From positions 1 to 23,911 of IMG/VR virus record IMGVR_UViG_3300017917_002865: a DNA stretch of 23,911 nucleotides. One strand, 5' to 3'. Shown in pieces: positions 6,684 to 22,905 of this stretch (the first letter of the stretch is position 1; each line of letters begins with the position of its first letter). A model generated the notes under the pieces. It was not told where the DNA came from. It ran no database searches and worked only from the letters and a program-made list of their open reading frames with translations. Source of the DNA: a virus. Made by a program: the position numbers and the translations under genes.

Positions 6684-6689
6684 TATTTA
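6684..6689 (-). promoter_or_regulatory. Late promoter core TAAATA for gp14-gp15-groESL operon
   Basis: On the minus strand TAAATA is followed by 7 nt and then the gp14 ATG (6676). It lies back to back with the plus-strand gp13 promoter, only 9 bp apart. No other good promoter was seen before groES, so this may drive the whole operon. Confidence 0.55.
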
Positions 6690-6697
6690 CCGCAGCA

Positions 6698-6704
6698 ATA
6701 AATA
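6698..6704 (+). promoter_or_regulatory. Late promoter ATAAATA, 5 nt before gp13 ATG
   Basis: ATAAATA followed by CTAGT and the ATG at 6710. With T4 late-promoter geometry (the element ends at about -6) the first transcribed base would be the A of the start codon, giving a leaderless mRNA. Confidence 0.65.
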
Positions 6705-6709
6705 CTAGT

Positions 6710-7468
6710 ATGAGCACAAACGACCAAGCCCGCCAGTCTGTCTACGACTATTGCCGCACTATGCTAGGTGACGGTATGATCGATGTAGAACTAGATCCAC
6801 AGCACTACCAAACAGCCCTAGATCGAAGCCTAGCAGTTTTCCGCCAACGCAGCGACAATGCTGTGGAAGAAAGCTATGTTTTTCTCAATCTCATACAGGA
6901 TCAAAACGAATATATACTGCCCAAAGAAATCCAGCAGGTTCGCCAGATTTTCCGTAGATCAGTGGGATCACGCACAGGCAACGGCACAGGCGGCACAGTG
7001 TTTGAACCTTTTAACCTAGCCTACACCAACACATATTTGTTGAGCTCAACAAACATGGGTGGACTTTTAACCTATGAATTATTTGCTCAGTATCAAGAAC
7101 TAGTGGGAAAAATGTTTGGATCGTTTATCAACTTTACCTGGCATCCACAGAGTCGCAAGCTGATTATACATCAACGTCCTAGAGGTGAAGAATCTGTGAT
7201 GCTAGAAGTCTATAACTCAAAACCAGATTTTGCCATACTAGATGATGTCTATGCAGGACAGTGGATCAAAGATTACTCACTGGCCAACTGCAAGATGATG
7301 CTAGGACAGGCTCGTGAAAAATTCGGCCAGATAGCAGGACCCAGTGGCGGCACACAGCTAAACGGAGCAGCTATGAAAACCGAAGCACAAGCAGAGATGG
7401 AAAAACTCATAGACGACTTAATAAAACTAGTGCCAGGTGGTTCTGGTTATACCTGGATCATTGGTTGA
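6710..7468 (+). CDS. 13: Neck protein / head completion (gp13-like)
   Basis: 252 aa (T4 gp13 is 309). gp13 acts with gp14 to close the portal after DNA packaging. The N-terminal helix pattern (YDYCRTMLGDGMIDVELDP, then YQTALDRSLAVFRQR) followed by YVFLNLIQDQNEYILPKEIQQVRQIFRR is characteristic of T4-like gp13. The C-terminus has YSLANCKMMLGQAREKFGQI followed by a Gly-rich stretch and a helix. No ribosome binding site is present; a late-promoter element ends 5 nt before the ATG, so a leaderless transcript is predicted. It is divergent from gp14, whereas 13 and 14 are adjacent and co-oriented in T4. Its TGA stop overlaps the ATG of the next gene by one base. Confidence 0.82.
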   Translation: MSTNDQARQSVYDYCRTMLGDGMIDVELDPQHYQTALDRSLAVFRQRSDNAVEESYVFLNLIQDQNEYILPKEIQQVRQIFRRSVGSRTGNGTGGTVFEPFNLAYTNTYLLSSTNMGGLLTYELFAQYQELVGKMFGSFINFTWHPQSRKLIIHQRPRGEESVMLEVYNSKPDFAILDDVYAGQWIKDYSLANCKMMLGQAREKFGQIAGPSGGTQLNGAAMKTEAQAEMEKLIDDLIKLVPGGSGYTWIIG

Positions 7469-8370
7469 TGTGTATAGTAATCGGCAAATACTTTGAAGGG
7501 CAGGGTTGGATCGGTATCAAGAACCGAGATCGCAATTATATCCCAGATATTTCATTCAAGAAAAAACTCAGTCAAGGAGTAGAAATACTCTATTTCTGGG
7601 ACGATGTCACGCAATACTGTGAAGGCATGAATTCTGCAGGTGTGGGAGTTCTCAGTGCCAGTTTGATGGTATTGGATGACGAAAAGGAAATCGAAGATCG
7701 CAGCAAGAATCCCAGCAAAGACGGTAAAAAAATAAAAAAAGCCTTACAGTATCCCAATGTCAAAGCAGTAACCATGAGTCTCATTGAACAGAAACTCACA
7801 GGCAATACCTTGGTGTTTGATGAAAACAACATGTATCTCATAGAAGGCGCATGGGAAAAAGGAGGATATGCCAAAGAAGAATATGCCTACAAGGTTCGCG
7901 AGATCAGCAAGGATCAGACCGTGGTCAGAACCAATCATGGTGTGTGGTTGTCGTGGGCTGGCTATCAGCATGGTGTAGATGATTCCCAGACACAGAGCCG
8001 ATACAGCAGCGAAAGCCGTAGGCTGATAGCGGAAATCGTCACAGCCAAGGCTGAGAATCCGGAAGATATATTAGATGGACTCACCCTAGATTTTACTCGC
8101 AACGGTCAGATGAATGCTTTGAGGACTACCACAGAGCGTAAAAAGATGAGGACTACCAGCCAGATCCTAATCGTGCCTAAAGAACGAACCATGTATGTGA
8201 GACCAGTGCAGAGCAATATGAAATTTAATTTCTGGGAACTCAACGATCCCAAACAACAGCTATGGGTAGAGATATTAAGCAACCGTGTGCTGTATAAAAA
8301 TCTTAAAGACATGGATCCTGAGAACGATCCTCCGTTCGATCATAAATTGAGCCACTCTATAGAAAAATAA
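7468..8370 (+). CDS. Ntn-type cysteine hydrolase (C45/C59-like: acyltransferase / choloylglycine-hydrolase superfamily)
   Basis: 300 aa from ATG 7468, which overlaps the gp13 TGA (TGATG); a TTG at 7465 is less likely because the ATG puts Cys at position 2. After Met removal Cys2 would be the N-terminal nucleophile, as in conjugated bile-acid hydrolases and penicillin V acylases. Other superfamily landmarks occur in order: IGIKNRDRNY (16-24, Arg20/Asp21), YCEGMNSAGVGVLSAS (50-65), the VRTNHGVW block (153-160, Asn156) and MRTTSQILIVP (227-237, Arg228), followed by a YVRPVQ strand. These enzymes cleave or transfer amide-linked acyl groups; the substrate could be a peptide, an acyl-homoserine lactone or a cell-wall component. 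Its position directly after gp13 suggests late expression and perhaps a virion role. The superfamily call is moderately strong, the substrate is unknown. Confidence 0.65.
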   Translation: MCIVIGKYFEGQGWIGIKNRDRNYIPDISFKKKLSQGVEILYFWDDVTQYCEGMNSAGVGVLSASLMVLDDEKEIEDRSKNPSKDGKKIKKALQYPNVKAVTMSLIEQKLTGNTLVFDENNMYLIEGAWEKGGYAKEEYAYKVREISKDQTVVRTNHGVWLSWAGYQHGVDDSQTQSRYSSESRRLIAEIVTAKAENPEDILDGLTLDFTRNGQMNALRTTTERKKMRTTSQILIVPKERTMYVRPVQSNMKFNFWELNDPKQQLWVEILSNRVLYKNLKDMDPENDPPFDHKLSHSIEK

Positions 8371-8392
8371 AGTTGAAAAATTAGTCACATCA

Positions 8393-8422
8393 TTGTTATC
8401 CATTTAATCTAAGTGGTATATA
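8393..8422 (+). promoter_or_regulatory. Sigma70-like promoter before the AT-rich 2OG gene
   Basis: TTGTTA (8393-8398), 18-bp spacer, then TATATA (8417-8422) with an extended -10 TG at 8414-8415. The predicted start (about 8429) falls at the doubled ATG (8427/8430), so this transcript may also be nearly leaderless. It would make the oxygenase independently expressed. Confidence 0.5.
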
Positions 8423-8426
8423 AAAG

Positions 8427-9002
8427 ATGATGAACATAGAATATCTTTTTTCTACACCTGTAGTTATTGATTATCTAACAATTGATAATTTTAGGTTAGA
8501 AAAGTTCTGTAGAAATGCCGTTGATTCTGCAGTAGGTCATCATAATCAAACCGGGTCATTAGATCTTTCATCCCCCGAATTACAACCATTAATAGTTGAA
8601 ATAAACCAAAGACTTCAATTATTGCATAAACAATTAAATTTTAGTAAAAATACTAAGTTTAGGATTAAAACAGCTTGGGCAAATATTAATAATTCTGCTC
8701 CAATTAATCTTCCTCATTGTCACCCTACTAGTGTTTTTAGTGCTGTATATTATGTAAAAGGTGCAGGAGCACCAGAAAATGGAAATCTTGTGTTGTTGTC
8801 ACCCTTAAATTCATTAATACAATACGCAATACCAGAAAAATACAAAGATGCTAATAACAGTTTTAATTCTTGGAATTGCACATTGCCTCCAGAAACTGGA
8901 AAATTGATAATTTTTCCATCTTGGATCACACATAGTGTTTCGGATAATAAATTGACAAATTCAGACCGAATATCAATAGCTATAGATGCCGATATAGGTT
9001 GA
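8427..9002 (+). CDS. 2OG-Fe(II) oxygenase (TIGR02466 / PF13759-like)
   Basis: 191 aa (190 if ATG 8430 is used). The core TAWANINNSAPINLPHCHPTS (residues 82-102) followed by SAVYYVKG, then GKLIIFPSWITHSV (158-171) and DRISIAID (180-187) is the pattern of the putative 2OG-Fe(II) oxygenase family: His97/His99 region, distal His169 and 2OG-binding Arg181. Substrate unknown. The gene is much more AT-rich (about 31% G+C counted over 8461-9000) than its neighbours (42-48% in sampled stretches), uses TTA/ATT-rich codons, and has its own sigma70-like promoter. It looks like a recently inserted cassette between the Ntn hydrolase and dNMP kinase. It is unrelated in detail to the oxygenase at the left edge. 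Confidence 0.78.
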   Translation: MMNIEYLFSTPVVIDYLTIDNFRLEKFCRNAVDSAVGHHNQTGSLDLSSPELQPLIVEINQRLQLLHKQLNFSKNTKFRIKTAWANINNSAPINLPHCHPTSVFSAVYYVKGAGAPENGNLVLLSPLNSLIQYAIPEKYKDANNSFNSWNCTLPPETGKLIIFPSWITHSVSDNKLTNSDRISIAIDADIG

Positions 9003-9027
9003 CCTAATAGGTTTATGATAGTATTAT
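8999..9027 (+). promoter_or_regulatory. Sigma70-like promoter for dNMP kinase
   Basis: TTGACC (8999-9004) overlapping the preceding stop codon, a 17-bp spacer, then TATTAT (9022-9027). A TATAAATT at 9025-9032 also resembles a late element, so the gene may be read both early and late. Leader with GGAG at 9037-9040, 6 nt before the ATG. Confidence 0.6.
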
Positions 9028-9046
9028 AAATTAATCGGAGAATAAA

Positions 9047-9733
9047 ATGATTATAGGTATTTGTGGTTTTATTGGTTCGGGTAAAGACACTATCGCGGAC
9101 TATTTGGTGAACTTTCACGAATTTAGGCGTGAAAGTTTTGCGTCTACGCTCAAAGATGCTGTGGGCGCAGTGTTTGGATGGGATCGGACTCTGCTAGAAG
9201 GACGAACCAAAGAAGCTCGTGAATGGCGAGAACAGGTAGACCCATGGTGGGCAGAACGCTTGGGAATGCCCACACTGACTCCTCGATGGGTGCTGCAATA
9301 TTGGGGCACCGAAGTTTGTCGAAAATCATTCCATGATGATATCTGGATAGCTAGCCTAGAAAATAAACTGCGAAATTCCAAAGATCATGTGGTGATCAGC
9401 GATTGTCGTTTCCCCAATGAAATCGCCAGCATACGAAATGCCGGAGGCAAAATTATTTGGGTGCAGAGAGGTGTCCTTCCTGATTGGTATGACGTTGCAG
9501 TTGATGCAAACAACGGCAGCAACATAGCTATCAATGAATTGAAAATGCGAAAGATACATGCCAGCGAAACTGCTTGGGTAGGAACTGAATTTGATGCTAT
9601 CTTAGACAACAACGGAACCATTGACGATTTATATCAACAGGCAAAATCAATAATCAGCGACGAGGTCGCCTTGACGCCAAGTGACGCCCTCCTTGTGAAG
9701 CACCTGAGCACAATTGGCACAGACTGTTTTTAA
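9047..9733 (+). CDS. 1: Deoxynucleoside monophosphate kinase (T4 gp1-like)
   Basis: 228 aa (T4 gp1 is 241). It phosphorylates dNMPs to dNDPs for phage DNA synthesis. The P-loop GFIGSGKDT spans residues 7-15, followed by YLVNFHEFRRESFASTLKDA, then WREQVDPWWAERLG and the segment RWVLQYWGTEVCRKSF (85-100), which is typical of the phage dNMP kinase family. VISDCRFPNEI is the Walker B-like strand. It starts after a good GGAG and a sigma70-like promoter, as expected for an early nucleotide-metabolism gene. The last 29 codons overlap the 3' end of the convergent HNH gene, and the C-terminal tail beyond about residue 200 has no conserved look. Confidence 0.88.
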   Translation: MIIGICGFIGSGKDTIADYLVNFHEFRRESFASTLKDAVGAVFGWDRTLLEGRTKEAREWREQVDPWWAERLGMPTLTPRWVLQYWGTEVCRKSFHDDIWIASLENKLRNSKDHVVISDCRFPNEIASIRNAGGKIIWVQRGVLPDWYDVAVDANNGSNIAINELKMRKIHASETAWVGTEFDAILDNNGTIDDLYQQAKSIISDEVALTPSDALLVKHLSTIGTDCF

Positions 9734-9985
9734 GTTTGCAAGACGGCAGTTATCTAAATTTCCGTCTATGTGAAACACTCTATACACTTCCGAGTGAGGT
9801 GATTTGAATCCGCACTTCTCACAGTGATTCTTGGGTTTGTATCCAGCCTGTTGCCATCTAGGCACGTGAGCTCTAGGTCCATGAACCATACAGGCTTCAC
9901 AGAGCCTACGATAATAGGCTTTTCCTTGTTTATAATAATTTAATGCTCTCGGACGCTGTGCGCAGGCCTTGCAAAGTGGTCTCAT
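9647..9985 (-). CDS. Zinc-binding HNH endonuclease-like protein
   Basis: 112 aa. Four CxxC knuckles (C5/C8, C29/C32, C55/C58, C89/C92) surround VFHIDGNLDNCRLANLKTVC, a degenerate HNH core with H72, D74 and the Asn-Leu-Lys-Thr segment. Similar short proteins are common in T4-like phages of aquatic bacteria and are called HNH endonucleases; with an intact four-knuckle layout it may equally be a DNA-binding regulator. It starts 5 nt after a minus-strand late-promoter element (9991-9996), with no ribosome site, so a leaderless late message is predicted. It is antisense to the last 87 bp of the dNMP kinase gene. Confidence 0.72.
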   Translation of the reverse strand: MRPLCKACAQRPRALNYYKQGKAYYRRLCEACMVHGPRAHVPRWQQAGYKPKNHCEKCGFKSPHSEVYRVFHIDGNLDNCRLANLKTVCANCAQVLHKEGVTWRQGDLVADY

Positions 9986-9990
9986 AGAAA

Positions 9991-9996
9991 TATTTA
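9991..9996 (-). promoter_or_regulatory. Late promoter core TAAATA, 5 nt before HNH ATG
   Basis: Minus-strand TAAATA followed by TTTCT and the ATG at 9985. Same 5-nt spacing as at the plus-strand late genes, so it should give a leaderless transcript. It is divergent from the sheath promoter at 10053. Confidence 0.6.
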
Positions 9997-10052
9997 CACC
10001 TTTTCCTCCCCTTTTTCACTGGCTATAACTGCCCATTTTTACAAGTTACCGC

Positions 10053-10058
10053 TAAATA
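10053..10058 (+). promoter_or_regulatory. Late promoter core TAAATA for sheath operon
   Basis: CTAAATA followed, 33 nt after its end, by the sheath ATG (10092). The transcript would start near 10064 and carry a short leader with AGGAG at 10077-10081. This gives the most abundant tail protein a normal Shine-Dalgarno leader. Confidence 0.6.
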
Positions 10059-10091
10059 TTATGAGCAACTATTACCAGGAGAATAGGGAAT

Positions 10092-13000
10092 ATGGCACTA
10101 CAATCACCCGGCGTACAAGTTACGGTAATCGACGAGAGTTTTTATACACCAGCAGAGCCTGGCACAGTTCCTCTGATCGTCGTAGCAACAGGCCAAGATA
10201 AAACTAACGGAGCAGGTACAAATACAGCTACCGGCACAACCAAAGCCAATGCTGGTAAGGCATTTAAAATGACCAGCCAAAGAGATCTAACAGATACATT
10301 CGGTATTCCATATTTTGAAAAAACTGCCAGTTCTACTCCTATCCATGGATCAGAGCGCAATGAATACGGTTTGTTAGCAGCCTACAGTTTATTAGGAGTC
10401 AGCAACGCAGCATTTATCGTTCGTGCAGACGTAAACCTAGACGAATTAGAAGCACAAGTAGATGCCCCGGGAGCGAATCCTACAAACGGTCAATGGTGGA
10501 TTGACACCCAGGCAACATCTTGGGGTATACAAGAATGGAATGGTGCAGCAGCGAGCACCACAGGCGGACAGAAATTTACATATAAAAATCCTATTGTATT
10601 AACAGACAACGATTATCCTGCTAAAATCACGAATAACATGCCTAAAGAATCAGTGGGCATGATTGGTGACTATGCTGTGGTATTCCAGACAGTGGAAGGC
10701 GATACTTCTTATGGTACTAATGAAGACCTAGCTAGATTCTATTTTAAATCAGCAGGCAACGGCGGAACAGCAGGTGGGGGAACGGCAGTTGCCTCCGGTG
10801 ACTGGGTATTGATAGGTTCCAAAGAGTGGAAAGCCAGCTGGCCTGTGTATACTGGGTCTGCTTCGACCAGCACCATCAACGGAACATTATTTGTTAACAA
10901 TCATCAGATCAGTGTTAATGGTGGAGTCACTGTAGCAAAAACAGCTATCAATGCCGCAAACATCACAGGTGTTTGTGCAAATGTCATCAACAACAAATTA
11001 TACATCTACTCCGATGGTAGAACATCAGGACTAGATTCTGCAGCCGACGGCACAGTGCAGTTGGAAAACGGCACCGGGTCTTGGGCAACACTTGGAGTTA
11101 CAGTTGGTAGATACGCTGCTCCTAAGATGCAGATCAGCCCACACACTTCTGTGCCAGCATTCAAGATCACAGACAATGCCACAGGAGACAATCCAATTAC
11201 AGCAGGATATCCAACTGGTTCTATCTGGATCAAATCCACAGAGCCAAACTATGGCGCTCGATGGAGAGCCAAGCAATGGAGTTCTGCCACAGAATCATGG
11301 GTCAGCCACGAAGCACCAATTTATGCTTCAACTAACTCTGCACTATATTATCTAGATCGCAGCGGTGGTGGGGTTGGAATCGCAGCTGATTCTCTTTTTG
11401 TCCAAAGCAATGCGTCTGAGAATTCTGGATTTGATCTAACTCCAGACACAGCTGAATTCCGTGTATGGCGTAGAAATGTTGCAGCAGGTTCTGGAGCCAG
11501 CATTACTTCAAACATCGTAAAAGCAAATACATTCACTTTATCATCTTCATATAGTTTTACTATGAAAGAAACATTGGTGGGAGAAGAAGGTCTTGACACA
11601 GCAAAAACTATTTCTTTCACCGGAGCTGGCAACAGCAGTGATGCTGATACCATAGCAGGATTGATTAACTCAGCAGGATTTACAAATATTGAAGCTTCTG
11701 TGATTACAATTTCAACAACATCTAGCAGATTAGTTATCACTCATACTGCAGGTGGTGATATGAGACTCACAGATGGCACAGGCACACCTGTTTCCAAATT
11801 GTTCACTGCCTATAATCTAAAAACCAGAGAAGGCACTGAGAATTTCTACAATATTTCAGCAGGACTTGTTACAGTAGGACAAGAAGATCTATCAACAGGT
11901 GCCAGTGAAGATTACCTAGCCAGCGGCTGGGAACCTTTGGCAGCGTCAGATCCAAGATTCGCAGCCAGCGGAGATGCTCCTTTAAACGAGCCAACAGATG
12001 GCCAGTTATGGTATAATCCAAACTTCTCCGAAGTGGACATCATGGTTCACAACGGTGCTACATGGGTAGGTTACAGACACAGCACAGCACCTTACTATGA
12101 GGCTGCAACAACTACCCTAAGAACAGGATATCTACCAATTGTGGCTGCAAGTAATCCTTATGTTTCCGGTGTAACAACTACCGGTGACTTGTGGGTCAGC
12201 ACAGCTGATATGGAAAACTATCCAACAATATATAGATACAACAGCAACCTAACAGACATAGCAGACACATCTCAACGTTGGGAATTGGTTGACAAAGCAG
12301 ATCAAACCACAGAAGAAGGTGTGTTATTTGCAGACGCTCGTTGGGCCACAGCAGGCAGTTCTAAAACAGCATCTACCATTGAGGATTTAATCACTAATAA
12401 CTTCCTTGATCCAGACGCACCAGATCCTGCACTGTATCCCAAAGGCATGCTGTTATGGAACCTACGTCGTTCAGGTGGTAATGTCAAGAGCTACTCTAAC
12501 AATTATATCAACACCACAGGTGATAATCCACGCACTAGCCAATCAGGCGGCACCAATGACGGTACAGCATTTGTCAGCGGATCGGGACAAAGTATGGAAG
12601 CATATTGGACAGATCGTTGGGTAACTGCCAGCGGTAACAACGAAGATGGTTCAGGTAGCTTTGGTCGCAAGGCACAGCGCAAGGTTGTTGTGCAGGCCAT
12701 GAAGAGCGCGGTAGACACCAGCTCAGAAATACGAGACGAAGAGCGCAGAAATTTCAACTTGATAGCTGCTCCTGGATACCCAGAACTACTCAGCAACCTA
12801 GTTAATCTAAACATTGACCGTGGTATTACAGCGTTCGTGGTTGGTGACACACCGTTGCGTCTAGAATCAGATTCTACCAGCCTAACAACATGGGGCACTA
12901 ATGCCAACCTAGTAACAGATAATGGCGATGACGGTATTGTAACTTATGACGAATACCTAGCCTGCTACTATCCAAACGGATACACCACAGACCTAAGTGG

Positions 13001-13598
13001 TGCAGGTGCAGTTGTTCCAGCATCACACATGATGTTGAAGACAATCGCTCTGAGTGACAATGTAAGTTATCCATGGTTTGCACCAGCCGGAACACGTCGT
13101 GGTGGTATCACTAACGCTACAGCAGTTGGTTATATCGATGCTATGACCGGAGAATTCCAGACTGTGGCATTGAACGAAGGACAGCGTGACACACTATATG
13201 ATCTAAAGATCAATCCAATTCCATTCTTCAATGGTGTCGGTCTAGTGGCCTACGGTCAAAAGACTCGTGCAAGAAACGCTTCTGCACTAGACAGAATCAA
13301 CGTAGCACGTTTAGTTGTATATCTACGCAGTCAGTTGAACAAACTAGCTCGTCCATATATCTTTGAACCCAACGATAAGATCACACGCGATGAGATCAAA
13401 CAAGCAGTTGAAAGTCTATTGCTAGAGCTAGTAGGTCTCAGAGCTATATATGACTATGCTGTTGTCTGTGATGAAAGCAACAATACTGCATCACGCATCG
13501 ATCGCAACGAACTTTATGTAGATATCGCGATTGAACCAGTGAAAGCAGTTGAATTCATTTACATTCCATTGCGTGTTAAGAACACAGGAGAAATTTAA
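10092..13598 (+). CDS. 18: Tail sheath protein (gp18-like), greatly enlarged
   Basis: 1168 aa against 659 for T4 gp18. The sheath surrounds the tail tube and contracts at infection. The N-terminus (SPGVQVTVIDESFYTPAEPG, then VPLIVVATG) and the C-terminal domain (about 870-1168, with RRNFNLIAAPGYP, WFAPAG, RINVARLVVYLRSQLNKLARPYIFEPND and YVDIAIEPVKAVEFIYIPL) are unmistakable sheath signatures; the C-terminal part forms the contractile core. The middle (about 120-860) is an insertion with at least four Gly-x-Trp...Trp modules, e.g. at 133-150, 376-404, 637-660 and 698-731, likely exposed on the sheath surface. AGGAG lies at 10077-10081. gp19 follows 2 nt after the stop, so the two form one operon that ends at the 14268-14296 terminator. 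Confidence 0.95.
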   Translation: MALQSPGVQVTVIDESFYTPAEPGTVPLIVVATGQDKTNGAGTNTATGTTKANAGKAFKMTSQRDLTDTFGIPYFEKTASSTPIHGSERNEYGLLAAYSLLGVSNAAFIVRADVNLDELEAQVDAPGANPTNGQWWIDTQATSWGIQEWNGAAASTTGGQKFTYKNPIVLTDNDYPAKITNNMPKESVGMIGDYAVVFQTVEGDTSYGTNEDLARFYFKSAGNGGTAGGGTAVASGDWVLIGSKEWKASWPVYTGSASTSTINGTLFVNNHQISVNGGVTVAKTAINAANITGVCANVINNKLYIYSDGRTSGLDSAADGTVQLENGTGSWATLGVTVGRYAAPKMQISPHTSVPAFKITDNATGDNPITAGYPTGSIWIKSTEPNYGARWRAKQWSSATESWVSHEAPIYASTNSALYYLDRSGGGVGIAADSLFVQSNASENSGFDLTPDTAEFRVWRRNVAAGSGASITSNIVKANTFTLSSSYSFTMKETLVGEEGLDTAKTISFTGAGNSSDADTIAGLINSAGFTNIEASVITISTTSSRLVITHTAGGDMRLTDGTGTPVSKLFTAYNLKTREGTENFYNISAGLVTVGQEDLSTGASEDYLASGWEPLAASDPRFAASGDAPLNEPTDGQLWYNPNFSEVDIMVHNGATWVGYRHSTAPYYEAATTTLRTGYLPIVAASNPYVSGVTTTGDLWVSTADMENYPTIYRYNSNLTDIADTSQRWELVDKADQTTEEGVLFADARWATAGSSKTASTIEDLITNNFLDPDAPDPALYPKGMLLWNLRRSGGNVKSYSNNYINTTGDNPRTSQSGGTNDGTAFVSGSGQSMEAYWTDRWVTASGNNEDGSGSFGRKAQRKVVVQAMKSAVDTSSEIRDEERRNFNLIAAPGYPELLSNLVNLNIDRGITAFVVGDTPLRLESDSTSLTTWGTNANLVTDNGDDGIVTYDEYLACYYPNGYTTDLSGAGAVVPASHMMLKTIALSDNVSYPWFAPAGTRRGGITNATAVGYIDAMTGEFQTVALNEGQRDTLYDLKINPIPFFNGVGLVAYGQKTRARNASALDRINVARLVVYLRSQLNKLARPYIFEPNDKITRDEIKQAVESLLLELVGLRAIYDYAVVCDESNNTASRIDRNELYVDIAIEPVKAVEFIYIPLRVKNTGEI

Positions 13599-13600
13599 AA

Positions 13601-14251: not shown

Positions 14252-14267
14252 TCAAAACCTTAATTAG

Positions 14268-14296
14268 AAAAAGCCTGGTTTACCCGGGCTTTTTTT
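14268..14296 (+). terminator. Rho-independent terminator after gp19
   Basis: A-run, AGCCTGG / TTTAC / CCGGGCT stem (one T-G pair) and a T7 tract. It closes the gp18-gp19 unit; the next late promoter starts 6 bp later. Confidence 0.9.
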
Positions 14297-14301
14297 ATGG
14301 C

Positions 14302-14308
14302 ATAAATA
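14302..14308 (+). promoter_or_regulatory. Late promoter ATAAATA, 5 nt before gp54-like ATG
   Basis: ATAAATA followed by TTTGT and ATG 14314. No ribosome binding site fits in between. Predicted +1 is the A of the AUG. Confidence 0.7.
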
Positions 14309-14313
14309 TTTGT

Positions 14314-15390
14314 ATGGCTAATTATTTCACTAGATTTTTGAACGGTGTCGCTGAAGGTGTAACAAATCCCAAGGGACAACAATCCAACTGGCGTCATGCT
14401 ACTAGACTGTTTGTAGACGACACCATGAGATTGGCACCTCGAACCAAATTCCTTTTTTATGTGAGATTTGAGATCAATAAACGAGCGATAAAAGCACCCT
14501 CGTTTACTAACAAACATCAAGAAGAAGTAGGTCTGTTGGTAAAATCTGCAGATCTTCCTAAATTTAATTTTGACAGTGTGATAAAGAATCAATACAACAG
14601 GAAAAAGATAGTCTATAAACAGATTAACTATGATCCTGTGAACATTGCTCTACACGACGACAGTGCTGGTATAGTCAGTGCCATGTGGGCTATCTACTAC
14701 GGCTATTATGTAGCAGATAGACTACAACCTAATTCGGCCTATGAAGCTAACCATCTTAGACCAACCAAGACTCCTAAAGATAATTTTAGATATGGTCTAG
14801 ACAATGATATCACAGCACCTTTTTTTGATTCTGTAACACTCTACACCATGAGCCGTAGAAGATTCATAGGTTACACACTGGTTAATCCTCGTATCAAATC
14901 TTGGAATCATGGCGCAATGGATTATTCTGCTTCAGAGTTTAATGATAGTCAGATGACTCTTGAGTATGAAGCAGTTAAATATTCCGCAGGCAATGTCAGT
15001 TACAATAATCCCAAAGGCTTCGCTAATCTTCACTATGATTCAACACCAAGTCCATTGACAGTGGCAGGAGGCGGAGTAGCTACTCTCACAGGCGAAGGAG
15101 GTGTGCTAGATGGTCTAGAACAGGTGTTCGGTGACATTGGTTCTGGCAAGGCCTTTGATAGTTTTGGTGGATTCCTTGGCACAGCAATCAAAGCTGTCAA
15201 CACATATAAAAATGTCAAGGGTCTATCAGCAGCTCAGCTCAAATATGAAGCTGTGAATATACTAAGCAATCCTGCAAACATAGCCGGTGCGGTGTCGACT
15301 GTGGGAGGTGTAGTAGGCAGTGTGTTCCCCAAAAGCGCATCAACAGAAACTTCTACGTCTGCTACTCAAAGAAATCTAACAGGACAATAA
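14314..15390 (+). CDS. Baseplate tail-tube initiator (gp54-like; gp48 possible)
   Basis: 358 aa (T4 gp54 is 320, gp48 364). These gp19-fold proteins start tail-tube polymerisation on the baseplate. The segment SADLPKFNFDSVIKNQYNRK (about 74-93) then YKQINYDPVNIALHDDS, followed by a W-x(n)-YYGYY helix, parallels the gp54/gp19 tube fold (strand, DP-h-x-h-x-h-DD, helix). The C-terminal third (230-358) is Gly/Ala/Ser-rich with short helices, as in gp54. It begins a new transcription unit directly after the gp19 terminator and is followed 1 nt after its stop by the next gene. Choice between gp54 and gp48 is uncertain; the tube-fold assignment is firmer. Confidence 0.62.
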   Translation: MANYFTRFLNGVAEGVTNPKGQQSNWRHATRLFVDDTMRLAPRTKFLFYVRFEINKRAIKAPSFTNKHQEEVGLLVKSADLPKFNFDSVIKNQYNRKKIVYKQINYDPVNIALHDDSAGIVSAMWAIYYGYYVADRLQPNSAYEANHLRPTKTPKDNFRYGLDNDITAPFFDSVTLYTMSRRRFIGYTLVNPRIKSWNHGAMDYSASEFNDSQMTLEYEAVKYSAGNVSYNNPKGFANLHYDSTPSPLTVAGGGVATLTGEGGVLDGLEQVFGDIGSGKAFDSFGGFLGTAIKAVNTYKNVKGLSAAQLKYEAVNILSNPANIAGAVSTVGGVVGSVFPKSASTETSTSATQRNLTGQ

Positions 15391-15391
15391 C

Positions 15392-16197: not shown

Positions 16198-16200
16198 GTA
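16195..16200 (+). promoter_or_regulatory. Possible variant late promoter (TAAGTA) before gp16
   Basis: TAAGTA followed by AAGT and ATG 16205 reproduces the 4-5-nt spacing of the other late starts with one mismatch in the core. Its first three bases are the gp4 stop codon. Weak; gp16 could simply be read through from the gp54-like unit. Confidence 0.25.
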
Positions 16201-16204
16201 AAGT

Positions 16205-16687
16205 ATGACCAAAAAACTTGAAGAACTGTTTGATCTAGAATCTCAAGAGCAGGAAAAAATCGTAGAAGAGACGATTCCGATTGCCAAGCATGAAGAGGTA
16301 AAAAGTCTCGACGATCAATATAGTGCCGTGCAAAAGATCGTGCAGACACTGCCTGCGATACAGGAGTTGGAAAATCTAGATGAAAAAGAATTAGATGATC
16401 TGGCAAAAAAAGCAGAGCAGGCCTATGATGATCTCATGGATCTGGGCATGAACGTAGAAGTGCGCTATGCCAGCCGTATTTTTGAAGTAGCCAGCTCTAT
16501 GATGGGCAACGCTATAACTGCCAAGACAAATAAAATTGAAAAGAAACTTAAATCAGTAGATCTTCAGCTTAAAAAACTTAAAATCGACAACGACTCGGGC
16601 AATGATCCAAATAATGTCATAAACGGACAAGGATACGTGATAACTGACCGCAACGAGCTACTGAAAAAATTGAGTGGAAAAGCATAA
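16205..16687 (+). CDS. 16: Terminase small subunit (gp16-like)
   Basis: 160 aa (T4 gp16 is 164). It recognises DNA and stimulates the gp17 packaging motor. A short acidic N-terminus is followed by LDDQYSAVQKIVQTLPAIQEL (35-55), two long helices separated around MNVEVRYASRIFEVASSMMGNAITAK (83-108), KLKSVDLQLKKLK, and a C-terminal ELLKKL; this order matches the coiled-coil core and C-terminal helix of T4-like gp16. Its position just after gp4 and within 2 kb of gp17 supports the call. In T4 gp16 and gp17 overlap directly; here three genes separate them. The stop TAA lies inside the next late promoter. Confidence 0.78.
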   Translation: MTKKLEELFDLESQEQEKIVEETIPIAKHEEVKSLDDQYSAVQKIVQTLPAIQELENLDEKELDDLAKKAEQAYDDLMDLGMNVEVRYASRIFEVASSMMGNAITAKTNKIEKKLKSVDLQLKKLKIDNDSGNDPNNVINGQGYVITDRNELLKKLSGKA

Positions 16688-16690
16688 ATA
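16684..16690 (+). promoter_or_regulatory. Late promoter ATAAATA, 5 nt before capsid-targeted protein ATG
   Basis: ATAAATA followed by TTACT and ATG 16696. The gp16 stop codon is embedded in the element. No ribosome site; leaderless start predicted. Confidence 0.65.
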
Positions 16691-16695
16691 TTACT

Positions 16696-17274
16696 ATGAA
16701 AACTTTTAAAGAATATCTCTCCGAAAATCAAAAATCATATCCTTTCAGATTAAAAATCGCAGGTGATGTTCCTGAGAATTTTATTAAAGATTTGAAAGAT
16801 TGCATTGGTAAAGCTAATCCTACTATTGTTGAAAAAAGTTCAACTCCTATACAATCTGTGCCTTTAGATTTTCCAGAATTAACCTATTTGCCCGTGACAA
16901 CATTTGAAGTTGTCTGCGAGTATCCAATAACAGCCCCCGAATTACAAGAGCATGTAAAATGGTTGGTTCCAGAATCACATTTCCGTGTTAGGAACGGAGG
17001 TGATGCCAGTGAAGTAGAACACAACACAGCAGATATGGACCCCAGTGGTAAATCCATGTTACAAGAACCATACAACGATAAGATCAAACACAAGGACTAT
17101 TTTGGTGATGATTTCAACAAAGGTTTTCTAAAAGATCTACAGAAGACATCTAAACAACGCACCAAAGATGGTTTCAACACAGAATACAAAATTTCAAAAC
17201 AAAAAGCAGACAAAGCTGGAACTGTATCTCCTATAAGCAAGGTTGATAATCCAGACCCACGCAAAGGAAAATAA
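16696..17274 (+). CDS. Putative internal head protein with capsid-targeting-like N-terminus
   Basis: 192 aa. The first ten residues MKTFKEYLSE closely resemble the T4 capsid-targeting sequence (MKTYQEFIAE in internal protein III), which directs proteins into the prohead and is removed by protease gp21 after an (L/I)-x-E; here L-S-E falls at the same place. The following 80 residues form an alpha/beta domain (PFRLKIAGDVPENFIKDLKD, then TFEVVCEYPITAPELQEHVKW), and the C-terminal half is basic and disordered, rich in Lys/Asp/Gly, suiting a DNA-packed interior. No known family for the body. It is the first gene of its own late unit; the next gene starts 1 nt after its stop. Confidence 0.6.
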   Translation: MKTFKEYLSENQKSYPFRLKIAGDVPENFIKDLKDCIGKANPTIVEKSSTPIQSVPLDFPELTYLPVTTFEVVCEYPITAPELQEHVKWLVPESHFRVRNGGDASEVEHNTADMDPSGKSMLQEPYNDKIKHKDYFGDDFNKGFLKDLQKTSKQRTKDGFNTEYKISKQKADKAGTVSPISKVDNPDPRKGK

Positions 17275-17275
17275 C

Positions 17276-18046
17276 ATGGACTTTCAACAACTATTAGCAA
17301 AGATGAATGAACTTGATCAACCAGCTCCAACCACTGATGCAGTTGTTGAAGAGCCGATGGTGGCTGACGAATGTGGCGATATGCCATCTAGCCCAATGGG
17401 CATGAGCATGCCTAAGGAACCAGACGCTCCCCCTCCAAGCATGAGCATCAATCTAAATGCACAAGGCCTAGATAATATCGAAGAATTGATGAATCTTATC
17501 AAGGCAGTGAACAAGGATATGGGACAACCTGCTCCTAGCATGGCCCCTAGCATTGAAATTGAACCAATGGACAAGCCCATGGGCCTTCCTCCATTAAAGA
17601 TGTTGCCTGATATGGATGCAGACAACGATGACCGTCCAGGCGGAGAACCAGACATCGAAATCAAAGGTCTAGATCGTGATAATGATGGTGATCACGACAT
17701 GGATGATCATGACATGGAACGAGACGAAGAAGATGAAGCATACGATCAAGAAAAAATGAAAGACGGCGACATGCACCGTGGTGGCACAGGCGCTGGTGAC
17801 ATCAGCAAAGATGGCGAAGAAAAAGAAGAAACGTTTGGTAATTCTGTAGGTGATTCAGAACCCGGTTATCAAAATACCGACTACATGGTTAACAAACTGT
17901 CAGGCGGAATAAACTCACCAAAGACCATGCATAAACACAGTTATCGTCAAGGTGATAATCCTATGGCAATGGAAGGTGAAGAACTACGTGCTTGGGTGCG
18001 ATCAGAATTGCAAAAGAAATTAGCAGAAGCTAAAGGAGTGAAATAA
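17276..18046 (+). CDS. Acidic Asp-rich protein, unknown function (head/scaffold candidate)
   Basis: 256 aa. Start ATG 17276 was chosen, right after the previous stop, with AAAGGA 8 nt upstream. It has a short N-terminal helix (MDFQQLLAKMNEL), a Pro/Met-rich linker, a helix at about 65-82 (LDNIEELMNLIKAVNKDMG), then a very acidic stretch (about 111-160) with repeated D-x-D-x-D/H elements (DRDNDGDHDMDDHD) that could bind Ca2+ or other divalent ions. A C-terminal helix ends ELRAWVRSELQKKLAEAKGVK. Acidity and position among head/packaging genes suggest a scaffold-like, internal or decoration role, but this is inference. Its TAA overlaps the next ATG by one base. Confidence 0.6.
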   Translation: MDFQQLLAKMNELDQPAPTTDAVVEEPMVADECGDMPSSPMGMSMPKEPDAPPPSMSINLNAQGLDNIEELMNLIKAVNKDMGQPAPSMAPSIEIEPMDKPMGLPPLKMLPDMDADNDDRPGGEPDIEIKGLDRDNDGDHDMDDHDMERDEEDEAYDQEKMKDGDMHRGGTGAGDISKDGEEKEETFGNSVGDSEPGYQNTDYMVNKLSGGINSPKTMHKHSYRQGDNPMAMEGEELRAWVRSELQKKLAEAKGVK

Positions 18047-18501
18047 TGGCAGACTTACATGGAGTGGCTATTGGCGGAGGCCTGACTGGTAACGTCGATA
18101 ACAACGCAAGAAAATTATTAGGGGACGGTGCCAGCGGAGTAGGTCCATACACTAGATTTGGAACTCCACAATTACAGGCTATTAAGGTTGTATCTTCAGC
18201 TTATGATTTTACAACAACACCAACAGCAACTAACAGCAACATATATAAAGCTATCAAAGGTCTCCAAACTCTAGGAGAAATTTACTATGTTGGTATCCCT
18301 ACTAGTTCGGGTGCAAATCAATTTGTTGTATTGATAAATCTAAACAACACATTCAATGGCGCTACACAAGGTAGTGGATCAACAGCAGCATCACAGGACG
18401 GTACTTATACTGCTATAGAAGCTAATATTTTAGCTCTGTTGGGAGGATCTGGATCAGTTACGATCACTAATGTGGCCTTAACCGGTTTGACATTTGCCTA
18501 A
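18046..18501 (+). CDS. Small Gly/Thr/Asn-rich protein, possible virion protein
   Basis: 151 aa, starting at ATG 18046 coupled to the previous stop (TAATG). Composition is rich in Gly, Thr, Ser and Asn with alternating beta-like segments (FVVLINLNNTFNGATQGSGS, then VTITNVALTGLTF), as in small structural or decoration proteins of phage virions. No family recognised. It is last in the unit that begins at 16696 and is followed by a strong hairpin terminator. Confidence 0.6.
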   Translation: MADLHGVAIGGGLTGNVDNNARKLLGDGASGVGPYTRFGTPQLQAIKVVSSAYDFTTTPTATNSNIYKAIKGLQTLGEIYYVGIPTSSGANQFVVLINLNNTFNGATQGSGSTAASQDGTYTAIEANILALLGGSGSVTITNVALTGLTFA

Positions 18502-18516
18502 TTGAATCAATATATC

Positions 18517-18544
18517 AAATAGGGCCGTGAGGCCCTATTTTTTT
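18517..18544 (+). terminator. Rho-independent terminator before gp17
   Basis: Perfect 10-bp stem AAATAGGGCC / GTGA loop / GGCCCTATTT followed by further T residues to 18544. It separates the 16696-18501 unit from the gp17 unit. Confidence 0.92.
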
Positions 18545-18546
18545 CA

Positions 18547-18553
18547 TTAAATA
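18547..18553 (+). promoter_or_regulatory. Late promoter core TTAAATA, 4 nt before gp17 ATG
   Basis: TTAAATA followed by TAGT and ATG 18558, 3 bp after the terminator T-tract. No ribosome site; leaderless or nearly leaderless start predicted. Confidence 0.65.
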
Positions 18554-18557
18554 TAGT

Positions 18558-20144
18558 ATGGCCAAATCTTTAGACGGTAATTTAATCAAGAAAGCTCATG
18601 CGCAGATCAAGTATACACTTGAAGAAGTCCAACACCTGGAAAAATGTATGGATCCCGTGGATGGCCCGTTATATTTTGCCTACAACTTCATAAAAATACA
18701 GCATCCGGTAAAAGGATCTATACCCTTCCATCCCTACAAATATCAAGAACGCCTGATTCATGCGTATCATAACAACAAACAATGCATTGCCATGTTACCA
18801 AGACAGATGGGTAAAACCACCTGTGCAGTGGCATACTTGTTATGGTATACCATGTTCGTTCCCGATGTTCAGGTTCTAATCGCAGCGCACAAGTATGAAG
18901 GCGCTCGAGACATCATGGATCGTTATAGATATGCCTATGAAAACCTGCCGGATTTTGTTCGCGCAGGTGTGTATTCATACAACAGAAACACCATAGAATA
19001 TGATAACGGTTCTAGAATACAAGCAACCACCACAACAGAGAACACCGGTCGTGGTAAATCTCTTTCATTGATTTATTGTGATGAGTTTGCTTTTGTGCAA
19101 CCACCAGAAAAAGCCAAAGAATTCTGGACTGCTCTATCTCCAACACTGGCCACAGGTGGTAAAGCTATCATCACATCAACGCCAAACTCCGACGAAGATC
19201 AGTTCGCTATGATCTGGACAGAAGCCAACAAGAAGTTTGATGAGTTTGGTAATGAAACAGAACTAGGTGTTAACGGATTTCACGCTTTCTTTGCTCACTG
19301 GAATGAACATCCAGATAGAGATGATGCTTGGGCAAGATTAGAAAAAGCCAAGATTGGCGAAGAACGTTTCCGTCGTGAGTTTGAATGCGAATTTTTAATC
19401 TATGACGAAACTCTGGTAAATTCTGTTAAACTGGTAGAAATGCAGGGATCTGATCCATACATGACCATGGGGCAGACACGTTGGTACAAAGACATAGATC
19501 CTCGTTGCACCTATCTTGTTGCACTTGATCCCAGTCTGGGCACAGGCGGAGACTATGGTGCCATACAGGTATATGAAATGCCTGAGATGGTGCAGGTAGC
19601 AGAGTGGCATCACAATGAAACTCCAGTGCAACAACAGGTCAAGCACATGCGGGAAATACTGCGATACATCCAAGATCGCGGAGAAGAAAAAGGTGCTGTT
19701 CCGCAGATATATTATTCTGTAGAAAATAACAATATCGGCGAAGCTGCGCTGATTGTTATCGGTGACATAGGTGAAGAAAACTTTCCAGGATTGTTCTTAT
19801 CAGAACCTATACGCAAAGGACATGTGCGTAAATTCCGCAAAGGATTTAATACCACACATCGAAGCAAGATAACTGCATGTTCAATACTCAAGAACATGAT
19901 CGAAACAAATAAGATGAAAATACACAGCAAACCACTTATTTCTGAGTTAAAAACATTCGTGGCCACGGGCTTGGGGTTCAAGGCCAAATCAGGAGAACAC
20001 GACGACCTAGTGAGCTCTACCCTGCTGATAGTGCGTATGGCTGAAGTTTTAGCTGATTGGGATCCACAGGTTTACGAAAAAATGACAGAAAGAATAACCG
20101 AAGAATCCATGCCTATGCCGATCTTTGTCAGCATGGGTTTATGA
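18558..20144 (+). CDS. 17: Terminase large subunit (gp17-like)
   Basis: 528 aa (T4 gp17 is 610). The DNA-packaging motor: an N-terminal ATPase and a C-terminal RNase H-fold nuclease. Walker A is PRQMGKTT (81-88), Walker B with catalytic acid LIYCDEF (171-177), coupling motif ITSTPN (205-210). Nuclease acids: Asp324 in ALDPSLGTGGDYG, Glu389 in YSVENNN and Asp482/483 in GEHDDLVSS. All motifs are intact, so it should be active. The start is the only ATG fitting the late-promoter spacing. The shorter N-terminus accounts for much of the size difference from T4. It is followed by the 624-aa gene, whose promoter lies at the gp17 stop. Confidence 0.97.
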   Translation: MAKSLDGNLIKKAHAQIKYTLEEVQHLEKCMDPVDGPLYFAYNFIKIQHPVKGSIPFHPYKYQERLIHAYHNNKQCIAMLPRQMGKTTCAVAYLLWYTMFVPDVQVLIAAHKYEGARDIMDRYRYAYENLPDFVRAGVYSYNRNTIEYDNGSRIQATTTTENTGRGKSLSLIYCDEFAFVQPPEKAKEFWTALSPTLATGGKAIITSTPNSDEDQFAMIWTEANKKFDEFGNETELGVNGFHAFFAHWNEHPDRDDAWARLEKAKIGEERFRREFECEFLIYDETLVNSVKLVEMQGSDPYMTMGQTRWYKDIDPRCTYLVALDPSLGTGGDYGAIQVYEMPEMVQVAEWHHNETPVQQQVKHMREILRYIQDRGEEKGAVPQIYYSVENNNIGEAALIVIGDIGEENFPGLFLSEPIRKGHVRKFRKGFNTTHRSKITACSILKNMIETNKMKIHSKPLISELKTFVATGLGFKAKSGEHDDLVSSTLLIVRMAEVLADWDPQVYEKMTERITEESMPMPIFVSMGL

Positions 20145-20150
20145 TAAATA
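20144..20150 (+). promoter_or_regulatory. Late promoter ATAAATA, 5 nt before the 624-aa gene
   Basis: ATAAATA, whose first base is the last base of the gp17 stop, followed by TACTT and ATG 20156. It fixes the start of the large protein; longer in-frame forms would overlap gp17. Leaderless start predicted. Confidence 0.65.
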
Positions 20151-20155
20151 TACTT

Positions 20156-22030
20156 ATGGACGCAAGAAACAATATAGCTACAGATTTATTCTATAAGATT
20201 CGCAGCCGATTTTCAGGCCTAAAATTAGGTGCCGAAACCGGACAGATTACTATCAATCCCGAAGAAGCTAGATTCTTTGATTTTGACTATATGGAAGGCG
20301 AAACTCCAATAGGGCATGTCAGTATCAGCCTAGCAGAACCTAATTCTATGAAAGTGTATTTCAGCCATGGAATCACTGAAGGCATGGACGATGGACAAAA
20401 AGGCAACTGGTATGGTTTCTTGAAAGAACTGCGAGGTTTCGCCAAGCGCAGATTACTGAGTTTTGATACCAGAGATATCGCCAAGGATAATCTGGATAAG
20501 AGAGATTATGAATTTTTGAGCCAAAATGCTCAACCTAAACCACAGATGAATACAATTCAAAAGCCCGTTGGAGAAAGTATTATGGCAGAGAGCAACATGT
20601 ATGGTAGCAGATTAATGAGCTATCAGAATTTAATGGATACTAAATTGATTATCAAGCACAACCAAGCAGTAATGGATGATGCTCAACCAGGTGCGAGGAC
20701 TAGACACATCGCAGCACTTTTCGTAGAAAATCAAGATGGTGAACGATTTAAATATCCATTCATTCATTTAGCCGGAGCAAGAGCCATGCAGAGGCACGTG
20801 GCCAATGGCGGCGTTCCCTATGACGATGTAGGCAAAAGCATAGTTAGAATGAGCGAAGAAATCGCAGCTCTAAAGAGTTTCGGTAATTATGTTGTTCGCA
20901 ACGACCTAATGAATTCAGAAACTAATTCTGTGGTAGAACGTTCTGCTTCTTATCTAAACGGTCTACGTGAACAGATCAAAGCATTGGCAAAACAAAGTCA
21001 TTATGAGGCATATATAGAAAATTTCCAAACTCAAGGCCCTGAAGAAGTTCCTCAAGAAGTTGTAGAAGATTTCAAAGAAAAATTCACAGTTCGATCATTT
21101 AAAGAAGACATCGCAACAGTATTTCCGGTCCTATACAGACTAATGAAAGAAGGAAACACAATAGGCTATGACGACATAGTCGCTATGACACAACAAGAAT
21201 TGCAGAATGAAGATGTAGAAATAGAACAAGAAGCAGATGATCCATTTGCTAGATTTGAAAACTGGGTGATGGGTCTAGGAGAAGATTCTGCAGTCACTTC
21301 AGAAGATCCTGAAGAACAACAGGCAGCGATACAAAAACTACAAGAACTAGTGGGTCAACATTTCCCAGCAGGCGTAGATGGCACTAATGCTATTGAAAGC
21401 CTAAAAGGACTAATTGAAGATCCAGAATTATACAAAAGAATCAAAGAACAGGCTGCCCAAGATCCAGAGACCTGTTGCAGAGGCTTGGTAAAAGATTGGT
21501 TAGAACTAAATGCACCAGAGGCTCTAGAACAATTGGACTTTGGTGATTATGTTGAAGAACCAGCAGCAGGCGAACAGCCAGCCGCGGAGCCAACGCCTGG
21601 TGCAGAAGTTGCAGCAGAACCAGCCGCAGCAGCACCAGCAGAAGAACCAGTTCCACAAGAAGCAATTGATCCAGATAATCCTAGAGATTACGATAGACCG
21701 GCAGTGGATAGGAAAAAGGCAGGCCAAGAACCATTGACAATGAAAGACGTGCAGTATAAAGATGACAAACCTAAACGTGATTTCGAAAAGAGAAAAGAAA
21801 GATTAAACACAGAAGAATTGGCAGAATTTATCACATCATTTTATGACAGAGAATCAGGCACATTCCCCAAAGGACCAGAAGGTGTTGCTACAATGGTAGG
21901 CAAGAAGTTTGGAGAACAGGCAGAACAAGTTGCTCGAAAGTTTGTAGAACGTATGGCACCACACCAAACAACTGAACAAAATCCAAAGCTAGCAGAATTG
22001 GCTCGTATTCAAGAATTAGCAGGCTTGTAA
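20156..22030 (+). CDS. Large conserved phage protein, probable virion component
   Basis: 624 aa from ATG 20156 (MDARNNIATDLFYKIRSRF). Domains by eye: an N-terminal alpha/beta domain (about 8-125) ending WYGFLKELRGFAKRRLLSFD then TRDIAKDNLDKRDYEFL; a helical middle (145-440); an Ala/Pro/Glu-rich linker (about 465-505); and a C-terminal helical domain with EELAEFITSFYDRESGTFPK, then VGKKFGEQAEQVARKFVERM, ending ELARIQELAGL. The same N- and C-terminal signatures occur in marine T4-like phages without assigned function. Its place after gp17 and the I-Q-E near the end, a possible prohead-protease site, suggest a head-related role (inference). An in-frame ATG at 20582 preceded by GGAG may give a second, shorter product. 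Confidence 0.65.
   Translation: MDARNNIATDLFYKIRSRFSGLKLGAETGQITINPEEARFFDFDYMEGETPIGHVSISLAEPNSMKVYFSHGITEGMDDGQKGNWYGFLKELRGFAKRRLLSFDTRDIAKDNLDKRDYEFLSQNAQPKPQMNTIQKPVGESIMAESNMYGSRLMSYQNLMDTKLIIKHNQAVMDDAQPGARTRHIAALFVENQDGERFKYPFIHLAGARAMQRHVANGGVPYDDVGKSIVRMSEEIAALKSFGNYVVRNDLMNSETNSVVERSASYLNGLREQIKALAKQSHYEAYIENFQTQGPEEVPQEVVEDFKEKFTVRSFKEDIATVFPVLYRLMKEGNTIGYDDIVAMTQQELQNEDVEIEQEADDPFARFENWVMGLGEDSAVTSEDPEEQQAAIQKLQELVGQHFPAGVDGTNAIESLKGLIEDPELYKRIKEQAAQDPETCCRGLVKDWLELNAPEALEQLDFGDYVEEPAAGEQPAAEPTPGAEVAAEPAAAAPAEEPVPQEAIDPDNPRDYDRPAVDRKKAGQEPLTMKDVQYKDDKPKRDFEKRKERLNTEELAEFITSFYDRESGTFPKGPEGVATMVGKKFGEQAEQVARKFVERMAPHQTTEQNPKLAELARIQELAGL
20570..20584 (+). promoter_or_regulatory. 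Internal in-frame ribosome binding site and start in the 624-aa gene
   Basis: GGAG (20570-20573), 8-nt spacer, ATG (20582). It sits at a domain boundary (residue 143, MAESNMYGSRLMSYQNL) and would yield a 482-aa C-terminal product. The full-length start has no ribosome site, so this internal one is better placed for canonical initiation. Confidence 0.35.
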
Positions 22031-22876: not shown

Positions 22877-22905
22877 TTGACTTTACTAAATAAAAAGCGC
22901 ATACT
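22877..22905 (+). promoter_or_regulatory. Dual promoter region of gp32-like gene
   Basis: TTGACT (22877-22882), 17-bp spacer, CATACT (22900-22905) fits a sigma70-like early promoter. Within the spacer CTAAATA (22886-22892) matches the late core. Both would give a leader with the strong AAGGAGG-type site (22951-22957). Early plus late transcription suits an SSB needed throughout infection, as for T4 gene 32. Confidence 0.5.

Follow-up and report, generated by a model that had tools for sequence, protein, structure and literature searches.

The window analysed here is the whole of a 23.9-kb virus record (IMGVR_UViG_3300017917_002865) from an uncultured giant phage of the T4 superfamily, and the element in question is the hexamer TAAATA, the core of the T4 late promoter. 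Among the window proteins, which come from simple open reading frame (ORF) calls, PHROG matches were obtained for gp13, tail sheath, tail-tube-like, head closure, terminase, SSB, GroEL, HNH nuclease and other proteins. The terminase is 96–82% identical to those of many IMG/VR contigs, including two of about 280 kb each, referred to below as G001 and G002. The closest cultured phages by terminase are the PA5oct-like Pseudomonas jumbo phages (54%), Sinorhizobium phage Phosso and Agrobacterium phage Atu_ph07; a search of the phage collection for near DNA matches to the window found none. A superoxide dismutase was also considered as a pointer to the host, but its best match, in a Methylophilaceae metagenome-assembled genome, is only 47% and too weak for this purpose.

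Six genes of the window have the hexamer 4 or 5 nt upstream of the ATG (the short class). The TAAATA-N5-ATG arrangement occurs at 6710, 9985(−), 14314, 16696 and 20156 (elements at 6699, 9996(−), 14303, 16685 and 20145), and TAAATA-N4-ATG at 18558, the start of the large terminase gene terL (element at 18548). In three other genes, the hexamer lies farther upstream and is followed by a leader with a Shine–Dalgarno (SD) sequence (the leader class). An initial annotation of this DNA had reported the six sites with their spacings, and the leader class at 608, 10092 (sheath) and 22967 (SSB); the sequence agrees in every case, with TAAATA found 30, 33 and 74 nt before the three leader-class starts and accompanied by AGGAG, AGGAG and AAGGAGG, respectively. 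The features are as follows, d being the number of nucleotides between TAAATA and the start codon.

6699..6704, + strand: late promoter element TAAATA, 5 nt before the ATG of the gp13-like gene; d = 5 in 8/9 relatives
6710..7468, + strand: predicted leaderless head–tail adaptor gene (gp13-like, phrog_211); coding periodicity straight after the ATG
9991..9996, − strand: late promoter element TAAATA, 5 nt before the HNH ATG; d = 4–5 in 34/37 relatives
9647..9985, − strand: predicted leaderless HNH endonuclease gene (phrog_2255, E 1.5e-5)
14265..14296, + strand: terminator-like hairpin and T-run adjoining the promoter, with approximate limits set by eye and absent from the pattern-scan list; T6 run upstream in 58/58 relatives
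14303..14308, + strand: late promoter element TAAATA, 5 nt before the ATG; d = 4–5 in 58/58 relatives
14314..15390, + strand: predicted leaderless tail-tube family gene (PHROG match, phrog_4542); coding periodicity from the ATG
16685..16690, + strand: late promoter element TAAATA, its TAA being the stop codon of the upstream gene 16205–16687; d = 5 in 64/67 and d = 7 in 3/67 relatives
16696..17274, + strand: gene predicted to be leaderless from its promoter geometry; no family match
18517..18544, + strand: intrinsic terminator (10-pair stem and T-run; pattern scan), a few bases 5′ of the terL promoter; T6 run in 81/85 relatives
18548..18553, + strand: late promoter element TAAATA, 4 nt before the terL ATG; d = 5 in 76/85 and d = 4 in 8/85 relatives
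18558..20144, + strand: predicted leaderless large terminase gene (gp17-like; phrog_36964, 1.5e-119)
20145..20150, + strand: late promoter element TAAATA straight after the terL stop codon, 5 nt before the ATG; d = 4–5 in 75/76 relatives
20156..22030, + strand: predicted leaderless virion structural gene (phrog_13484); conserved N-terminus MDA(T/R)NNIATDLFYK
572..577, + strand: late promoter element of the leader class, 30 nt before gene 608–1051 (GTG start, AGGAG)
10053..10058, + strand: late promoter element of the leader class, 33 nt before the sheath gene 10092–13598 (AGGAG); leader of 31–46 nt in 40/40 relatives
22887..22892, + strand: late promoter element of the leader class, 74 nt before the SSB gene 22967 (AAGGAGG); leader of 66–82 nt in 67/68 relatives

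The initial annotation saw no SD sequence at the short-class genes. This holds within the predicted mRNAs, with the refinement that G-rich stretches resembling an SD sequence (GGGGAGG, AAGGTG) lie just 5′ of the HNH TAAATA and hence outside the predicted mRNA. The description of the 14314 gene as gp54-like fits its tail-tube families in PHROGs, but this is a tail gene and not a head gene.

Spacing between TAAATA and start codons

By itself, TAAATA is no commoner in the window than expected (14 against 19.9), whereas TAAATA-N5-ATG was found 5 times against 0.43 expected, a number reached in 0/100 shuffles. Six of the 14 words lie 4–5 nt from a start codon, one lies 1 or 7 nt from the start of a minus-strand structural gene, and three precede SD-leader genes. 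When each TAAATA was shifted by up to 40 nt (the jitter null), 0/2000 trials attained the count observed in the window.

In the larger genomes, the distance from TAAATA to the called start shows a sharp peak at 4–5 nt in G001 (282 kb, 21 genes) and G002 (280 kb, 19 genes), together with a broad mode at 14–38 nt; T4 and PA5oct have the broad mode only. Against the jitter null, the observed numbers were 23 vs 1.3 in G001, 21 vs 1.6 in G002, 31 vs 1.1 in G014, 64 vs 0.9 in G016, 23 vs 1.3 in G017 and 12 vs 0.9 in the Pelagibacter phage HTVC008M, and again 0/2000 trials reached the observed value in any of them. Thus, the 4–5-nt spacing is very strongly enriched in related genomes, which the initial annotation had named as a check. 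T4 itself does not show this class: the jitter test gave no excess of short spacing in T4, which has one such gene, or in PA5oct. A reversed-pattern control over 12 relatives gave 15 occurrences against 133 for the real pattern, counts that are not independent because the records are related and partly overlapping. TAAATA at −11 or −10 was the commonest fixed-position hexamer 5′ of starts in 8/10 class-carrying records and joint first in HTVC008M. The reversed-pattern and hexamer controls differ from the test in base order, for which reason the jitter null was added.

A chance meeting of an AT-rich word with start codons might be considered, since TAAATA is plentiful in AT-rich genomes and T4, PA5oct, CBB, GAP32 and others show no excess. 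However, the shuffles, the reversed patterns and the local jitter rule it out, and in two GC-rich (57–59%) contigs of about 0.5 Mb, TAAATA-N5-ATG stands at 40:0 and 27:0 against the reversed control; this explanation is already refuted in the clade of the window, and its overall probability is negligible. As a separate observation on G014 (L380–L399) and G016 (L415–L434), each about 0.5 Mb with 57–59% GC, TAAATA-N4/5-ATG is their top fixed-position start signal, and both classes show a preference for G as the fourth nucleotide following TAAATA. Spacing 4 prevails in G016 (50 genes), where TAAATA at −10 is the commonest hexamer at a fixed position before starts.

The spacing is also conserved gene by gene. 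Among the relatives, TAAATA lies 4–5 nt 5′ of the ATG at 84/85 terL loci, 75/76 loci of the 20156 gene and 58/58 loci of the 14314 gene; the short spacing is likewise kept for the 16696 gene (64/67, the other three at 7 nt), the HNH gene (34/37) and the gp13 gene (8/9). TAAATA, although it is the search word itself, is conserved at these sites among orthologues. The letters of the spacer vary between relatives while its length is constant, and the class is therefore a property of each gene. A switch of class was found as well: a baseplate wedge gene of G001 (1143 aa) has spacing 5, and a G002 gene of similar size, whose product shares the initial residues MTT with it, has spacing 18.

It was also verified that these ATGs are the likely starts. 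Substitutions show coding periodicity right after the ATG, and the N-termini are conserved. A true start farther downstream with its own SD sequence was ruled out in two cases, terL (1/84) and the gene at 20156 (0/68). For the HNH, 14314 and 16696 genes, in-frame start-like codons with SD-like words exist in part of the relatives, and there the N-terminal conservation is the argument for the upstream ATG.

Translation signals and the position of the transcription start

The two classes differ clearly in translation signals. Pooled over ten records, an SD-like tetramer precedes 19/215 genes with the short spacing (4–5 nt) and 152/218 genes with a leader of 12–40 nt. The start codons of the short class are almost exclusively ATG (ATG 214, GTG 8, TTG 1; n = 223); a comparison set of SD-preceded codons is more mixed (498 ATG, 100 GTG, 79 TTG), though in-frame codons inside genes are counted in it. 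RNA structure over the first 40 nt of the message is weaker for the short class in G016 (p 4e-6), G014 (p 6e-5) and, weakly, G001 (p 0.02), and this difference was not seen in G002 or G017.

The position of the transcription start can be estimated from the known element. In the published geometry, TATAAATA spans −13 to −6 relative to the start (PMC1524935); the initial annotation had reasoned from this as well, and +1 should thus be the nucleotide six positions after TAAATA. A purine stands there in 88% of leader promoters in PA5oct, 78% in pelagiphages and 72% in T4. At spacing 5, the 6th nt is the A of the ATG, and a pyrimidine precedes the ATG in 122/133 genes, as compared with 796/1675 (48%) of other ATG starts.

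The surroundings of two promoters bear on whether longer transcripts could serve these genes. For most of the terL relatives, only about 3 nt separate TAAATA from the end of an intrinsic terminator (hairpin plus T-run), and 81/85 terL loci and 58/58 loci of the 14314 type have a T6 run in the 60 nt upstream. A −10 element has to lie 5′ of the start site that it serves, so that transcription from these elements would yield a leader of at most about 5 nt. One could instead suppose that the genes are translated from read-through transcripts by termination–reinitiation from the upstream cistron, the promoter being near the ATG only through genome compactness. The TAA of the element at 16685 is indeed the upstream stop codon, and the promoters of 6/21 short-class genes in G001 and 8/19 in G002 overlap the stop codon of the preceding gene. 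Nevertheless, this is improbable: terL and the 14314 gene have a terminator-like stem or T-run directly upstream, the gap to the upstream gene on the same strand exceeds 60 nt for 23/31 (G014) and 37/63 (G016) short-class genes, the HNH and gp13 genes begin divergent or isolated units, and compactness does not predict a fixed spacing of 4–5 nt. Compactness alone is ruled out by these gap counts.

Still less probable, and very unlikely in our estimate, is that TAAATA beside the ATG is an RNA element for SD-independent initiation within longer leaders and no promoter at all. Its constant distance to the ATG and the mutual exclusion with SD sequences would suit such an element. However, these genomes also carry the hexamer ahead of SD leaders, at distances that vary, it equals the known T4 late element (PMC1524935, PMC2988020), and the terL terminator ends so close to TAAATA that no leader remains to hold the element.

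The reading favoured here, as in the initial annotation, is that a T4-type late system very probably serves two classes of late genes, one with SD-bearing leaders and one leaderless, in which +1 would fall on the A of the AUG or 1–2 nt before it. The bimodal spacing as compared with the jitter null, its gene-specific conservation, the anticorrelation with SD sequences, the pyrimidine before the A and, at two genes, the abutting stems or T-runs are five independent lines of evidence for it. Its closest competitor keeps the promoters and the SD-independent initiation and differs only in giving the mRNA a leader of 1–3 nt. A purine, mostly G, before the ATG at spacing 4 speaks for this, and so do the pelagiphage cyclase orthologues, which occur at spacings 5, 6 and 7, and a minus-strand gene of the window starting at 6676, which has spacing 7. 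The features concerned are the following.

6684..6689, − strand: late promoter element TAAATA of a gene divergent to gp13; first ATG inside the promoter (spacing 1), second ATG at 6676 (spacing 7)
5285..6676, − strand: near-leaderless gene of a virion structural protein (phrog_11591), facing away from the gp13 promoter

In the start region of this gene, TAAATAtATGACTATG, the first ATG overlaps its own late promoter and one relative has the second ATG only, so that 6676 is probably the start. On the other side, the pyrimidine–A step at spacing 5, the majority arrangement in the clade of the window, indicates +1 at the A, and a purine occupies the same offset in the leader promoters of PA5oct, T4 and the pelagiphages. 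A very short leader in place of none is possible but rather unlikely.

Several points weigh against strictly leaderless messages. At spacing 4, the ATG usually follows a purine, in many cases a G in the fourth position after TAAATA, and a 1-nt leader is as likely there as none. Leader promoters of GC-rich phages have this G too, and in the GC-rich megaphages transcription may start on it and leave a leader of 1 nt. In the clade of the window, no clear preference for a purine was seen at the expected +1 of leader promoters. The SD contrast is weak in HTVC008M (p 0.05) and Mosig (p 0.001), in both cases on small numbers. Some short-class genes adjoin the upstream gene, so re-initiation could contribute, and leaderless initiation would presuppose a competent host. 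Finally, the leaderless messages are a strong inference, their 5′ ends being deduced from promoter geometry and abutting terminators; +1, the initiation step and its likely benefit are deduced as well.

Proposed mode of expression and comparison with known systems

In the proposed scheme, an RNA polymerase holoenzyme with a gp55-like sigma factor would recognise TAAATA as the −10 element of late genes. In the leader class, with the element 12 to about 80 nt upstream, it would produce mRNAs with SD-bearing leaders; in the short class, with the element 4–5 nt upstream, it would start at the A of the AUG or at most 1–2 nt before, and ribosomes would engage the 5′-terminal AUG without an SD sequence. 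G001 encodes, at 104920(−), a protein homologous to gp55 with 46% identity to the late sigma factor of PA5oct, as well as a clamp-loader (gp44-like) protein; the window fragment itself does not include the gp55 homologue. The likely benefit would be temporal locking, in which a gene is translated only from transcripts begun at its own late promoter, since early or middle transcripts reading through the gene would offer only an internal AUG with no SD sequence, which should hardly be translated. We suggest more tentatively that a leaderless class is hard-wired into a viral sigma-factor regulon in several clades of the T4 superfamily (freshwater and marine jumbo phages, GC-rich megaphages and pelagiphages), that it locks translation to the late phase, and that it is possibly aided by the phage-encoded ribosomal protein bS21; this wider proposal is less likely than not to hold in full.

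The nearest known system is the T4-type late regulon itself (gp55/gp33/gp45; TATAAATA), which shares the TAAATA core, a gp55 homologue in close relatives of the window, similar late genes and the SD-leader class. It differs in two respects. One is that the T at −13 and the A at −12 are weak or lost here; this degeneracy of the first two bases agrees with published accounts of other T4-like phages. Another is that a large class here has the element 4–5 nt from the ATG, unlike T4 (1 gene) and PA5oct (2 genes). Leaderless mRNAs are known in bacteria and phages, for example lambda cI and those of mycobacteria (PMC4633059). The predicted messages would share with such mRNAs a 5′-end AUG, the lack of an SD sequence and weak 5′ structure, but here they would form a class conserved gene by gene within a single viral sigma-factor regulon, and the phages concerned use SD sequences as well. 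In T4 gene e and I-TevI, the SD sequence is hidden in long transcripts and freed in late ones (PMC3014915, PMC2988022); there too, a late promoter stands beside the start so that only late transcripts are translated well, and homing endonucleases are included. The T4 hairpin release, however, keeps the SD sequence, whereas here the 5′ end itself would be the signal. The late promoters of phiKZ, T(−3)ATG(+1), start at the G and are used by a different, phage-encoded polymerase (PMC7598289). They likewise place the late start sites of a jumbo phage on an ATG-like motif, but that ATG is not in the mRNA and is not a start codon. No description of leaderless T4-like late mRNAs was found in the open-licence literature, the coverage of which was partial.

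T4 is the textbook late regulon, its late messages mostly carrying SD leaders, and its relatives here would offer a testable form of viral control through the mode of translation initiation. A stable set of essential genes (terminase, neck, tail and nuclease) has apparently been moved to leaderless messages, with SD leaders kept for other genes, for example those of the sheath, SSB and capsid. In practice, the short class helps to locate start codons that gene callers expecting an SD sequence may misplace, and the cultured phages HTVC008M and Mosig, which grow on Pelagibacter, are systems in which the prediction can be checked to the single base.

Distribution and gene content of the short class

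The short class is also found in marine phages. Of the Pelagibacter phages, HTVC008M has 12 short-class genes and Mosig 6, the latter signal being weaker. In HTVC008M, +1 is predicted at the A of the ATGs at 6280, 7562, 11972, 16007(−), 18916(−), 18943, 19456, 31132, 49760, 75830 and 142360. The public annotation of HTVC008M independently places the starts at those ATGs for the genes inspected, namely those of the DNA end protector, head closure, tail tube cap, baseplate wedge, tape measure and tail completion proteins. In a second, divergent terminase set, about 50% identical to Phosso, the spacing is 5–6 in 61/79 loci. Simple counts gave no clear excess in KVP40, CBB, GAP32, 121Q, RaK2, PAU, Phosso, Atu_ph07, Syn9, P-SSM2, P-SSM4, phiM12, Cr30, XaC1, Melnitz or Vibrio 2.275. 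The bS21 protein is encoded by G002 (L160), HTVC008M (L156), G014–G017, PA5oct and Phosso; it occurs in most but not all of the short-class phages, and in some phages outside the class. A strict link was not supported: G001 has a strong class without bS21, and PA5oct and Phosso carry bS21 without the class.

The initial annotation had described the class as one of head, neck and packaging genes, which proved too simple, as nuclease, baseplate, tail and metabolic genes belong to it. In the relatives, the short-class genes include those for HNH, tail-tube-like, baseplate wedge, endolysin-like, superoxide dismutase, glutathione peroxidase, QueC-like and radical SAM proteins, and in HTVC008M baseplate and tape-measure genes. 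Conversely, some leader-class genes encode head proteins, and the major capsid gene of G001 has an SD sequence and no TAAATA within the 160 nt inspected. A division of the classes into head, neck and packaging versus tail is ruled out by the gene content of both.

Some further observations concern individual genes. A predicted leaderless Fe/Mn superoxide dismutase gene (L104:17301–17858(−)) and a predicted leaderless glutathione peroxidase gene (L105:12902–13435(+)) lie behind late promoter elements. The tail sheath protein of the window (10092–13598) has 1168 aa as compared with 659 aa for the T4 ORF, and its phrog_23 match lies near the C-terminus. A phage GroEL-like chaperonin is encoded at 1108–2781 on the minus strand, and the adjoining small gene 2774–3082 may be a candidate GroES. 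Finally, a conserved mini-ORF of 32 codons with TAAATA-N5-ATG lies just 5′ of the portal gene in G001 (near 94696(−)), G002, G004 and G005; it possibly encodes a leaderless coupling peptide, and in G001 the end of the mini-ORF and the start of the portal gene overlap (ATGA).

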